From Candidatus Terraquivivens yellowstonensis (lineage in GTDB: Archaea; Thermoproteota; Nitrososphaeria_A; Caldarchaeales; Wolframiiraptoraceae): 14,147 bases of DNA. Positions 4,072 through 9,350 of this stretch are shown one piece after another. The translations under genes and the position numbers were made by a program. Numbering within the stretch: position 1 is the stretch's first letter; the number at the start of each line of letters is the position of its first letter. The stretch lies in contig JAKCEW010000016.1 of NCBI GenBank assembly GCA_023539445.1, positions 1-14,147 on the forward strand, given 5' to 3'. Under the pieces are notes generated by a model. That model saw only the letters and a program-made list of their open reading frames with translations, had not been told where the DNA came from and did no database searches.

Positions 4072-5037
4072 TTATGTCACCTTTAATTCTTTAAATAAAA
4101 CATCAACATCGGTTATAGGCGAACCTGCATCATCGCAGATTTTTTGTTTAGCTGGCGGGTTTTTCATATAAAACGGTATCCTTTGGGTTATGCGTTCTTG
4201 GAACGTAGGTATTAGTTCATTCTTGTAGAAAACCCCGATGGGAATTTTATCACCCCATTCTCTAGCTTTTTCCATGGCGGCAAGTTTTTTACTAAAATCT
4301 TCACTTAAATCGTGCACAACGGGGTCGTATCCCACATCTTCTAACTTGTAAAGTCTTGGTACTGGTTTACCGGTTTTGGGATCTATCCGATCTTCGCCAG
4401 CATACCACTCTTTTGTAGTTATATCATTGTATGTTGGACACGGTTGTAGTATATCTACTAAGGCTAGTCCCTTGTGCTGAATTGCCTGTTTTATTATTTC
4501 TTTCAAGTGTTTGGTGTCGTAAGCATAAGATCTTGCAACAAAAGTGTATCCCGCTGCAAGGGCAACGATTAGTGGATTCACGGCTTCATTAATGTTCGGT
4601 TTGGGTATTGCTTTAACTTTTAAGCCCAACTTAAGTGTTGGTGAGGCTTGTCCCTTAGTAAGTCCATAAACCCCGTTATCGTGTATCAGATAGGTCATAT
4701 CCACGTTTCTCCTTCCCGCGTTAACAAAATGGCCCATGCCTATTCCTAGCCCGTCACCATCACCGCCTATAGCTATAACTTCTAAATCTGGATTCGCAAT
4801 CTTTATTCCCTGTGCGAATGGCAGGGTCCTACCATGAAGTGTGTGAACTCCGTTAACTTTTACGAAATGTGGGGTCTTGCCAGAACAACCTATTCCGGAC
4901 ACTAATACGACTCTATGGGGTTCAAGTGCCAGTTCTGCCAGAGCCATCTGCAAAGCCAACAGTATGCCGTAATTTCCACATCCTGGACACCAATCAACAA
5001 AAACGTCTGACTTAAAGTCTTGCCATCTAAGTGCCAT
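4072..5037 (-). CDS. korB: 2-oxoacid:ferredoxin oxidoreductase, beta subunit
   Basis: The 321-residue protein is the thiamine-diphosphate subunit of a two-subunit 2-oxoacid:ferredoxin oxidoreductase. C17 and C20 (WCPGCGNYG), C51 ([10 protein letters not shown]) and C200 (QPCPTYND) match the four cysteines that hold the single [4Fe-4S] cluster of the Sulfolobus-type enzyme. [10 protein letters not shown] (91-100) followed by [12 protein letters not shown] is the ThDP/Mg motif. K54 lies at a position linked to substrate handling in that family. The complex converts a 2-oxoacid plus CoA to acyl-CoA, CO2 and reduced ferredoxin in the cytoplasm. Substrate preference (pyruvate, 2-oxoglutarate or broad) cannot be fixed by eye, so the symbol is nominal. 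Its ATG at 5035-5037 lies inside the end of the alpha gene (11-base overlap), implying translational coupling. It is the last gene of the tusA-isc operon and converges on the regulator gene, with 40 bases between. Confidence 0.95.
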
Positions 5038-6955
5038 AGGTTAACACCTGCCTTTTTGGTGCCCTACCATCTAAAACAAGTTTTAAAGCATTATAAACCT
5101 CAGTAGTGGTCATGGGTCTACCGTTATATTTGACTATCTGAAAGTCCATTAACACGCCGGTTTTCTCTGTTATAATCCCGCCTAATTGCCCAGAATAATT
5201 CATTTCAATATCAATCACCCTCTCGGCTTTTTCGAGAGTTTCCTTTATGTATTCTCTTGGAAGGGGATGCACCATTCGAACCTGCAGAAAACCTACACTA
5301 TAACCTTCTCTGGACAGCTCGTTTAAGGCTTCAACTATTGCACCTTTCGTAGAACCCCAGCTTACTATCATGTTTTTAGCGTTCGGCTCTCCGAAAAAGT
5401 TGATTTTCTCCGTTATCGGCACCTCCCTATTGACGGCTTCAAGTTTTTTCATACGTTTCTCCATCATTTTAGTTCTGTTATGTGGCTCCTCACTTATGTG
5501 CCCATACTCGTTATGCTCATCACCAGTGTACCAATGCACGCCATTTTTTGTGCCGAGTAAAACACGAGGTGAAACCCCCGAGTCAGTAAAAGCAAAACGC
5601 TTGTATTCTATGCCATCAAGCATTTTTTCATCCAGAATTTCGCCCCGATGTATTTTGATACTACTAATGTCAAACACTGGAAAGGTTTGGGAACTATTGG
5701 CAAGTGCCTTGTCTATAAGGTGAATTACGGGTAGCTGGAATCTTTCAGCATAGTTGAAAGCGTTTACCGCGTCGTAGAAGCATTCTCTAATGTCACCTGA
5801 GGCCAGCACTATACGTGGAAACTCTCCATGTCCGGCATGAACGGCGAATCTTAAATCATCTTGCCCGTGCCGTGTAGGCAACCCGGTTGAAGGTGCGCCT
5901 CGTTGATAATAGGTTATGACAACTGGAACCTCATTGTTGCCAGCCCAAGACAGACCCTCAACCATTAACGAGAATCCAGGTCCAGAGGTAGATGTTGAAG
6001 CTCTAGCACCAGCTAAAGCTGCACCCAAAGCCATATTTATAGCTGCGATTTCATCTTCTGTTTGGATCACAACTACACCAACTTCCACGCCTGGAATTTT
6101 TGTGGAGAGGACTTCATGGGCTTCTATGTATTCACTCTCATCCGCTGCCGGAGTTATGGGATAGTAAGTTTGAACCCTACATCCACCTAAAATCTTACCA
6201 ATTGCAACAGCTTGGTTTCCCGAAAGGAAAATTCTCTCTTCTTTTACGACTCTTTCTGGAAGACGGTAACTAAAGTCTTTTGAGAAATTGTTTTTTGCAT
6301 AATCGTATGCAACTTCTAGTGCGAGAAGGTTCATTTCGACAATTTTCGGTTTTTCTCCAAAAATGTCTTTTATGGCTTTTTCAACCAAGCCAATATCGTA
6401 CCCTAATAAACCAAAGGATATCCCGATTGTTAACACGTTTATCATTCGCGTAATTTTATTTAATTCTCTTATGTTAAGCTTACTTGCAATTTGTTTAAGT
6501 AGCTCCATGTACGGAACTTCAAAAACATGGATGCCTTTGTTCCTCACATATTCAAGCAGATCTGCTAAACGGGTGCCTATCCCGTTTTCTTTCATAAATT
6601 CTTGGAAAATAGATTTAAATTCAATCGGTAACGTGGGAATCTCCAAAATTTTAGTGTCCAATTGGTTTTGATCAACTATTATTCCTCCATTAGGAACTAT
6701 TTCAGATATATGCCTAACAACAGTTTCAGCGTCAAAAGCCGCCAGCATGTCTACATCGTTCACATTAGCTGAAACCTCGTTGCTTGAAACTCTTAGGTGG
6801 AAGTAGCTATGTAATCCCTTTATATTTGAATGATACTCGCGGCGTCCATAAACGTACAAACCACCATAACCACATGCTCTCCCAAAAATGTTCGCTGCTG
6901 TATCCACGCCGCTTCCTTGGGGTCCGCCGGCCATCCAATTAAACCCTTTCTCCAC
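5027..6955 (-). CDS. korA: 2-oxoacid:ferredoxin oxidoreductase, fused gamma-alpha subunit
   Basis: The 642-residue protein joins a gamma domain (about 1-200, beginning [20 protein letters not shown]) to an alpha domain (about 235-640). The alpha domain has YPITP at about 265-269, the signature of this family, followed by [10 protein letters not shown] and [20 protein letters not shown]. This fusion is typical of archaeal two-subunit enzymes. With the beta subunit encoded immediately downstream it forms the heterodimer that oxidises 2-oxoacids and reduces ferredoxin. The start is GTG at 6953-6955, with GGGGTG about four bases upstream; it begins only 12 bases after the stop of a small cysteine-rich protein. 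No delta ferredoxin-like subunit is present, so electrons leave through the beta-subunit cluster to a free ferredoxin encoded elsewhere. Confidence 0.95.
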
Positions 6956-6967
6956 TTTTTCACCCCA

Positions 6968-7141
6968 TCATTTTTCTTGATGTTTATTTGATTGAAGATT
7001 TTTTTGATACCTTTCAGCACATTTCTGACAGCAAAAAACGTATTCTTTTCCGTTGATAGTAACGCGATAAGTCGCTAATTGACATGTTTCTAATGGGATC
7101 GGTATGTTACAGAACTCACATCTGATAAACTCTTTTTTCAT
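6968..7141 (-). CDS. 57-residue TRASH/YHS-like cysteine-rich protein
   Basis: A short frame begins at an ATG (7139-7141) overlapping the iscU stop as ATGA and ends with TGA at 6968-6970. The 57-residue product starts MKKEFIRCEFCNIPI and later reads VNGKE-like INGKEYVFCCQKCAERY. It has C8 and C11 as CxxC, C20, then C37, C38 and C41 as CCxxC. Aromatic-CCxxC after a short beta segment is the pattern of the TRASH/YHS treble-clef group, which binds metals such as copper, zinc or iron. It resembles the YHS domains in the copper ATPase and at 12365-12511, but is more cysteine-rich. Its place between iscU and the Fe-S oxidoreductase suggests a metal or cluster handling role, for example iron delivery or cluster insertion; that is inference. 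The exact coding overlaps on both sides make it very likely to be a real gene despite its size. Confidence 0.8.
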   Translation of the reverse strand: MKKEFIRCEFCNIPIPLETCQLATYRVTINGKEYVFCCQKCAERYQKNLQSNKHQEK

Positions 7142-8714: not shown

Positions 8715-8725
8715 TTTGTAACACT

Positions 8726-9094
8726 CTAGAAGCACATAACTGCATCTGAGTTTAAGACTAGATCATTCAAAGTTGCTGCGCCTACTATTTTGGCTTCTGG
8801 TATAAAATCGCCACGTGGAATGCCAAGCAACATACAACTTTGCTCACAAACCATGAGTTTAACACCAGCCTTAACCGCCTGATCCATAACTTCCTTCAAA
8901 GATGGAAAATTGCCAATCTTTATTTTCTCAGCCTCACCCTTCTTAACTAGAGTGATGCCCTTTATTAGAAAATATATCGTAGCATCAACCCCCATCATGG
9001 TGGCAGTAGTTGCCAAAATGAATGGAGCATAGGCACGTTCAGGAGTATCAACCCCGCTTGTTTGAATGTATAAAATTTTTTTCTTTTCTGCCAA
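8726..9094 (-). CDS. DsrE-like sulfur relay protein
   Basis: The 122-residue protein resembles the DsrE/DsrF/TusD-like fold: an N-terminal beta strand ([11 protein letters not shown]), an early helix after a PERAYAPF segment, a [13 protein letters not shown] strand, and a late cysteine-bearing strand-loop [11 protein letters not shown] with C83 and C87. A third cysteine, C121, is second to last. Proteins of this group carry sulfur as persulfide in relays with TusA. It is encoded 11 bases before iscS and 19 bases after tusA, so it most likely hands sulfur from TusA towards the Isc proteins; this is inferred from context. The start is TTG at 9092-9094, with GGTGA at 9099-9103 as ribosome binding site. 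Whether it belongs to DsrE, DsrE2 or a sister group needs a profile search. Confidence 0.8.
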
Positions 9095-9113
9095 CGTTTC
9101 ACCTTCCTAGTAT

Positions 9114-9350
9114 TTATTTAACTTTTTTAATCAATATTTGAACCTGATTCTCCTTCTTGGTTATACTCACGAGTTCTTGTCCTAAATTTCTCACTAGACT
9201 TTTAATGTCCTCTTCTGCGGCAGGATCGTCTGCTAAAACTTCAAGAACTTCACCAACCTTCATCTGATCAAGCTCCATTCTTGTCCTGAAAACCGGCTCT
9301 GGACAATAAAGTCCCAAACAATCTAATTTTCTATGAGGGCTAATTCCCAT
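9114..9350 (-). CDS. tusA: TusA-type sulfur carrier protein
   Basis: The 78-residue protein has the full SirA/TusA/YedF pattern: KLDCLGLYCPEPVFRTRMEL near the N-terminus, with C16 in the CPEP motif as the expected persulfide-bearing cysteine and C11 upstream, then KVGEVLEVLADDPAAEEDI. TusA proteins take sulfur from desulfurases, rhodaneses or sulfane-sulfur compounds and pass it to DsrE-type partners. Here it is the first gene of the operon ahead of the DsrE-like gene, iscS and iscU. An AGGAGG ribosome binding site (9355-9360) precedes the ATG at 9348-9350. No rhodanese is visible in the window, so the primary sulfur source is not shown. Confidence 0.93.
   Translation of the reverse strand: MGISPHRKLDCLGLYCPEPVFRTRMELDQMKVGEVLEVLADDPAAEEDIKSLVRNLGQELVSITKKENQVQILIKKVK

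Follow-up and report, generated by a model that had tools for sequence, protein, structure and literature searches.

A sulfur-carrier module linked to a desulfurase-dead IscS in archaea suggests a relay route to iron-sulfur clusters

The window analyzed here is an entire contig (C7, 14,147 bp) of the metagenome-assembled genome (MAG) of Candidatus Terraquivivens yellowstonensis, which comprises 35 contigs and 1.16 Mb and is 95.8% complete. Its minus strand carries a run of seven genes from 9350 to 4072, tusA-dsrE-iscS-iscU-yhs-korA-korB, in which the genes of two putative sulfur carriers precede those of an altered cysteine desulfurase homologue (IscS) and the iron-sulfur (Fe-S) scaffold IscU (Table 1). 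The initial annotation had described overlaps or gaps of under 20 bases throughout this run, and no gap indeed exceeds 19 bp: from tusA to korB the intergenic distances are 19, 11, -1, -4, 12 and -11 bp, taking ATG 8714 as the IscS start, which is likelier than GTG 8735, and ATG 7530 as that of IscU. The seven genes likely form a single transcript. TusA is the only copy in the host genome, and the closest solved structure to the DsrE-like protein is 3mc3. The best PDB matches of IscS and IscU are both from Archaeoglobus fulgidus, namely IscS2 (4eb5/4eb7/4hvk), which has the same Asp substitution described below, and IscU (4eb5_C).

Table 1. Genes of the tusA-korB run, with positions in the window and the profile match behind each assignment
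Gene and product	Position	Strand	Profile match
tusA, sulfur carrier, 78 aa, catalytic Cys16 in CPEP	9114..9350	-	PF01206 2.8e-24, above cut-off
dsrE-like sulfur carrier, 122 aa, Cys83	8726..9094	-	PF02635 2.6e-20
iscS, Asp-type, pyridoxal 5'-phosphate (PLP) Lys replaced by Asp, catalytic Cys336 retained	7530..8714	-	NCBIfam NifS 538.7 bits, above cut-off
iscU scaffold, Cys34, Asp36, Cys59, Cys103 (numbering from open reading frame (ORF) start 7533)	7138..7530	-	PF01592 4.7e-53
YHS/TRASH-like cysteine-rich protein, 57 aa	6968..7141	-	PF04945 8.4e-6, under Pfam cut-off
korA, 2-oxoacid:ferredoxin oxidoreductase alpha (fused gamma-alpha)	5027..6955	-	NF041170 868 bits
korB, 2-oxoacid:ferredoxin oxidoreductase beta	4072..5037	-	NF041171 474 bits

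Whole-length homology and the catalytic cysteine place the window IscS in the IscS/NifS sequence family. The PLP-binding lysine of functional desulfurases (E. coli K206) is replaced by Asp at residue 213 of the ORF counted from 8735, and the catalytic Cys (E. coli C328) is retained at residue 336 of the same frame, within the motif SSGSACTAK; residue typing thereby confirmed the Lys206Asp change with a preserved cysteine that had been noted at the outset. In desulfurases, N155, Q183, H205, K206 and R354 (E. coli numbering, as hereafter for IscS) hold PLP and the cysteine carboxylate, and the window protein has Ser, Ala, Asn and Leu at N155, Q183, H205 and R354. Compared with Lys-type homologues, Asp-type proteins have undergone a coordinated loss of Q183, H205, K206 and R354, and often N155, but retain T76, H104, D180 and C328, and in most cases T243. 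All 51 Asp-type proteins compared share R89, S106 and N109, and K331 and T332 are nearly invariant. Asp occupies position 206 in all 51, an invariance that is partly an effect of ascertainment, as the set was gathered in part with patterns fixing Asp; with position 206 left free, 32 of 32 matches in 294 genomes read either Asn-Asp or His-Lys and no other pair. Simple degeneration of IscS is disfavored both by this restriction to Asp or Lys and by the rise of the lineage-specific invariant residues R89, S106 and N109. Judged by its residues, the Asp-type IscS is predicted to be without PLP and cysteine chemistry while keeping its mobile-loop Cys and its partner IscU.

For comparison, IscS loci were drawn from named genomes, among the matches listed, which do not amount to a census, and from scans of two phyla. 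The Asp motif was present in 23 of 398 genomes scanned in the host phylum, representing 12 genera, and in 21 of 392 genomes in the phylum of an ANME-2 relative, while a reversed-pattern control gave zero matches in both scans. Position 206 was readable in 138 IscS proteins (54 Asp, 84 Lys), with one Asp locus represented twice (L035/L055). Linkage was counted after removal of this duplicate, at loci whose upstream sequence exceeds 1.5 kb, for carriers on the same strand and within 2.5 kb. Genes for TusA and/or DsrE are linked to 44 of 45 Asp-type loci versus 2 of 78 Lys-type loci (Fisher p 9e-30, a value that assumes independent loci although the loci are related). The Asp-type loci carry tusA in 41 and dsrE in 24 of these 45 cases, and a YHS match accompanies 13 of them versus 0 of 78 Lys-type loci. 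Four Asp-type loci have neither carrier, three of which end at a contig edge no more than 650 bp upstream. The proposed correlation between tusA-dsrE and Asp-type IscS is thus upheld, and a neighborhood unique to this genome, or one arising by chance, is ruled out by the recurrence of the linkage. KorAB, suggested initially as the client of the pathway, lies within 6 kb in only 3 of 19 groups and was rejected as a dedicated client. As delineated from gene neighborhoods, the conserved module is tusA-(dsrE)-iscS(Asp)-iscU-(yhs); korAB is adjacent in the host and is not a conserved partner.

A tree of 134 proteins, built with a quick method, places Asp-type IscS on one side of a single branch (Shimodaira-Hasegawa-like approximate likelihood ratio test, 97) with Lys-type proteins outside the Asp clade, and on the evidence of this tree the Lys-to-Asp change appears to have occurred once. 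The clade spans Thermoproteota families, MAGs named Bathyarchaeota and Methanomethyliaceae, Hadesarchaea, an A. fulgidus-like cluster, ANME-2/Methanoperedens, Nitrososphaerota and two bacterial MAGs. The position of dsrE relative to the core varies by lineage, being upstream, between, divergent or downstream, and one Nitrososphaerota locus reads iscU-iscS with tusA downstream. Accordingly, of the conserved tusA-dsrE-iscS-iscU order anticipated in the initial annotation, the linkage recurs across lineages but the order does not hold. Outside the core, the commonest families are the FprA/metallo-beta-lactamase type and YHS, found in 6 of 19 groups each, and all others occur in at most 5. The shuffled order and the mostly unshared outer neighbors argue for a linkage that is more than frozen synteny, and the tie between tusA/dsrE and Asp-type IscS is probably best read as one association kept over deep divergence. 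Other arrangements were also seen. At L226, a tusA-dsrE-iscS(Asp)-iscU cluster shares the locus with a divergently oriented Lys-type iscS, and divergent Lys-type dsrE-tusA-iscS-iscU clusters from the genus and order of the host occupy 6609-9003 of L045 and 6671-9068 of L047. At L213-L218, from several A. fulgidus-like genomes, tusA-iscS(Asp)-iscU is immediately preceded by a ThiI-like gene, an assignment made by eye.

The residues used for sulfur transfer are conserved in the partner proteins. Among the TusA proteins linked to Asp-type IscS, C16 occurs in all 45 rows that cover the position and D42 and D48 in 46 of 46, matching C19, D45 and D51 of E. coli TusA; the window TusA has all three, that is, the CPxP Cys and the conserved Asp pair. 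In the E. coli TusA-IscS complex, TusA C19 lies ~4 Å from IscS C328 (PMC2854127). C83 is found in 31 of 31 linked DsrE proteins. IscU residues C34, D36, C59 and C103 are conserved wherever the column is covered, and the window IscU retains the three Cys and the Asp of the cluster site.

The near-constant adjacency of the carriers to a dead IscS suggests that sulfur for the clusters comes from the carriers rather than from cysteine processed by the Asp-type IscS. TusA, with DsrE in many lineages, probably exchanges sulfane sulfur as persulfide with the mobile-loop Cys of IscS(Asp), which would hand it on to IscU, giving a flow of TusA to IscS Cys to IscU. The IscS(Asp) dimer would then serve both as a relay and as a platform for Fe-S cluster assembly by IscU, to which it would contribute a cluster ligand as in the A. 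fulgidus crystal (PMC9769115); in the host, SufS could also load TusA. More tentatively, inorganic sulfur in the form of TusA/DsrE persulfide may load this former desulfurase, left with the functions of relay and platform alone, in a widespread, mostly archaeal arrangement that might provide the main route in some archaea.

Evidence on the source of the sulfur differs between lineages. Five genomes with the operon (G524, G432, G539, G441 and G450) were assigned to Archaeoglobales through G524. This genome, one contig of 2,178,400 bp, contains the exact 4eb5 IscU sequence and an IscS that matches 4eb5 across the C-terminal part, and it is taken to be A. fulgidus itself or a closely similar strain. 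Neither IscS nor SufS of the Lys type was found in these five genomes, where all desulfurase-level PF00266 matches are Asp-type and the next matches score ~100 bits or less (those examined, below 43 bits versus SufS and IscS); sulfur must therefore arrive there by another route. The sulfur relay proposed initially is thus supported by the specific linkage, the conserved cysteines and these complete Archaeoglobales genomes, though not in its choice of KorAB as client. The host, in turn, encodes a SufS with intact catalytic Lys and Cys adjoining a SufU-like gene, so that cysteine-derived sulfur could still enter via TusA and the route may not be cysteine-independent in the host. Loading of TusA from cysteine by such a separate, active desulfurase, which would keep the relay but not its independence from cysteine, is a serious contender, if somewhat short of an even chance, and is compatible with the relay from TusA through IscS to IscU in everything apart from the source. 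It agrees with the lack of any rhodanese match in the host genome and with the other desulfurase homologues, Lys motif visible in most, of the Asp-type genomes G107, G276 and G401; the Archaeoglobales, which have the same operon without Lys-type IscS or SufS, speak against it. The host has one SufB/D homologue, and no SufB/D match was found in the Asp-type genomes G107, G276, G095, G175, G300 and G401, five of which belong to the host phylum and one (G401) is named Bathyarchaeota; according to PMC7585200, SufBC appears to be present in archaea universally.

The role of IscS(Asp) itself may also be construed otherwise. A purely structural IscS(Asp) would lend a Cys ligand while IscU receives sulfide directly or from TusA/DsrE, with no IscS persulfide involved. 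In line with this, Cys321 of A. fulgidus IscS ligates the cluster in the crystal of IscS with IscU(D35A), and the role proposed for this IscS is that of a ligand and not of a sulfur source (PMC7585200; PMC9769115). Such a platform would, however, leave unexplained why TusA, which docks at the IscS Cys loop, stays beside IscS in nearly every lineage, and it is considered unlikely. A reverse flow, in which IscS-IscU would supply TusA/DsrE with sulfur for the thiolation of tRNA or cofactors, or TusA/DsrE would salvage sulfur from clusters, would be in line with the ThiI-like gene (named by eye) before tusA in some Archaeoglobales and with E. coli, where TusA takes its sulfur from IscS (PMC2854127); it is nevertheless quite improbable for an IscS(Asp) that lacks the residues for forming persulfide from cysteine. 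The opposite direction of transfer in E. coli also counts against the relay from TusA through IscS to IscU, as do several observations made here. L165, an Asp-type locus with full flanks and neither carrier, is a genuine exception. Among Lys-type loci, the two positives L045 and L047 form a divergent group within the order of the host and are arranged dsrE-tusA-iscS-iscU, so adjacency alone leaves the direction of sulfur transfer unfixed. Moreover, because the Lys-to-Asp change is a single event, its correlation with the carriers lacks independent replication, and an independent-pairs comparison yielded one pair only.

A desulfurase-dead IscS is already known, as is each protein of the module. 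A. fulgidus IscS is reported to be without desulfurase activity because of the Lys-to-Asp substitution (PMC7585200), and M. acetivorans IscS1 (IscS1-IscU1, MA0808-MA0807) is also without the catalytic Lys; iscS1-iscU1 is clustered with four genes whose function was left unassigned there (PMC7585200). The A. fulgidus IscS2-IscU pair (4eb5, 4eb7, 4hvk) belongs to the same clade, with ~60% identity, the SSNDIYGPKG motif and the catalytic Cys. In the A. fulgidus-like G524, the 4eb5 IscU sequence occurs in both loci, tusA-dsrE-iscS-iscU and dsrE-iscS-iscU, whereas the A. fulgidus literature found covers the IscS-IscU pair only, and TusA/DsrE linkage is not described in the texts searched. Of the archaeal minimal systems, MIS (minimal iron-sulfur; MisSU) and SMS (SUF-like minimal system; SmsBC), the former resembles the module in combining IscS and IscU homologues without chaperones; as described, it consists of a desulfurase and a scaffold, whereas the Asp module has a dead desulfurase and added sulfur carriers (PMC12442378). 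The window is not predicted to encode an active MisS beside MisU, the PLP Lys and substrate residues being gone. The dsrE3A-tusA-hdr cluster of Sulfolobales likewise uses TusA and DsrE as archaeal sulfur carriers, but it feeds sulfur oxidation via an Hdr-like complex and has no IscS/IscU (PMC8551704); IscS and IscU were not matched in the text of a paper on M. cuprina DsrE and TusA. In E. coli, TusA docks on IscS with Cys19 facing Cys328, and the corresponding TusA residues are conserved here, but that IscS is an active desulfurase and sulfur flows from IscS to TusA (PMC2854127).

No description of the conserved tusA-(dsrE)-iscS(Asp)-iscU module was found in open-access text, although a report elsewhere is possible, and no statement of a sulfur donor for A. 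fulgidus IscS was found in the open-access text searched. Cluster assembly has been modeled on the A. fulgidus IscS-IscU structure (e.g. PMC9769115), whose IscS, however, reportedly does not make persulfide from cysteine. For the Asp clade as a whole, the linkage points to TusA, together with DsrE, as a concrete candidate donor, and the question becomes testable with four small proteins.

The placement of contig C7 in the MAG bears on the host alone, as the result for the Asp clade is independent of it. The contig is a compositional outlier, with a tetranucleotide correlation to the MAG of 0.454 versus 0.56-0.77 for other fragments, and its KorA and KorB are 52% and 65% identical to those of genus-mates, versus 75-97% for unambiguous orthologues. 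Both features would be expected of mis-binned foreign DNA, which is possible though not the favored account; the operon would then say nothing about the host, though it would still belong to the conserved module. However, korAB and dsrE-tusA-iscS-iscU are missing from this MAG at the sites where genus-mates carry them, as in G001, which has a Lys-type dsrE-tusA-iscS-iscU cluster where the host has none, and this agrees with replacement by a transferred segment. The argument is qualified by the genus-mate G004, in which no IscS-type match beyond SufS was found, so that loss alone is possible. The best-fitting account is that the segment was acquired and the native modules were lost.

The operon is flanked (892-4031 and 12762-14012) by genes for an FprA-type flavoprotein, a desulfoferrodoxin-like protein, a peroxiredoxin and a RIC/PAS protein, and similar redox-stress genes lie near the loci of some relatives (L051, L088 and L158). 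In addition, two YHS-domain proteins are encoded at 10274-12511: a CopA-like P-type ATPase, whose YHS domain is N-terminal, and after it a short protein that ends at 12511.

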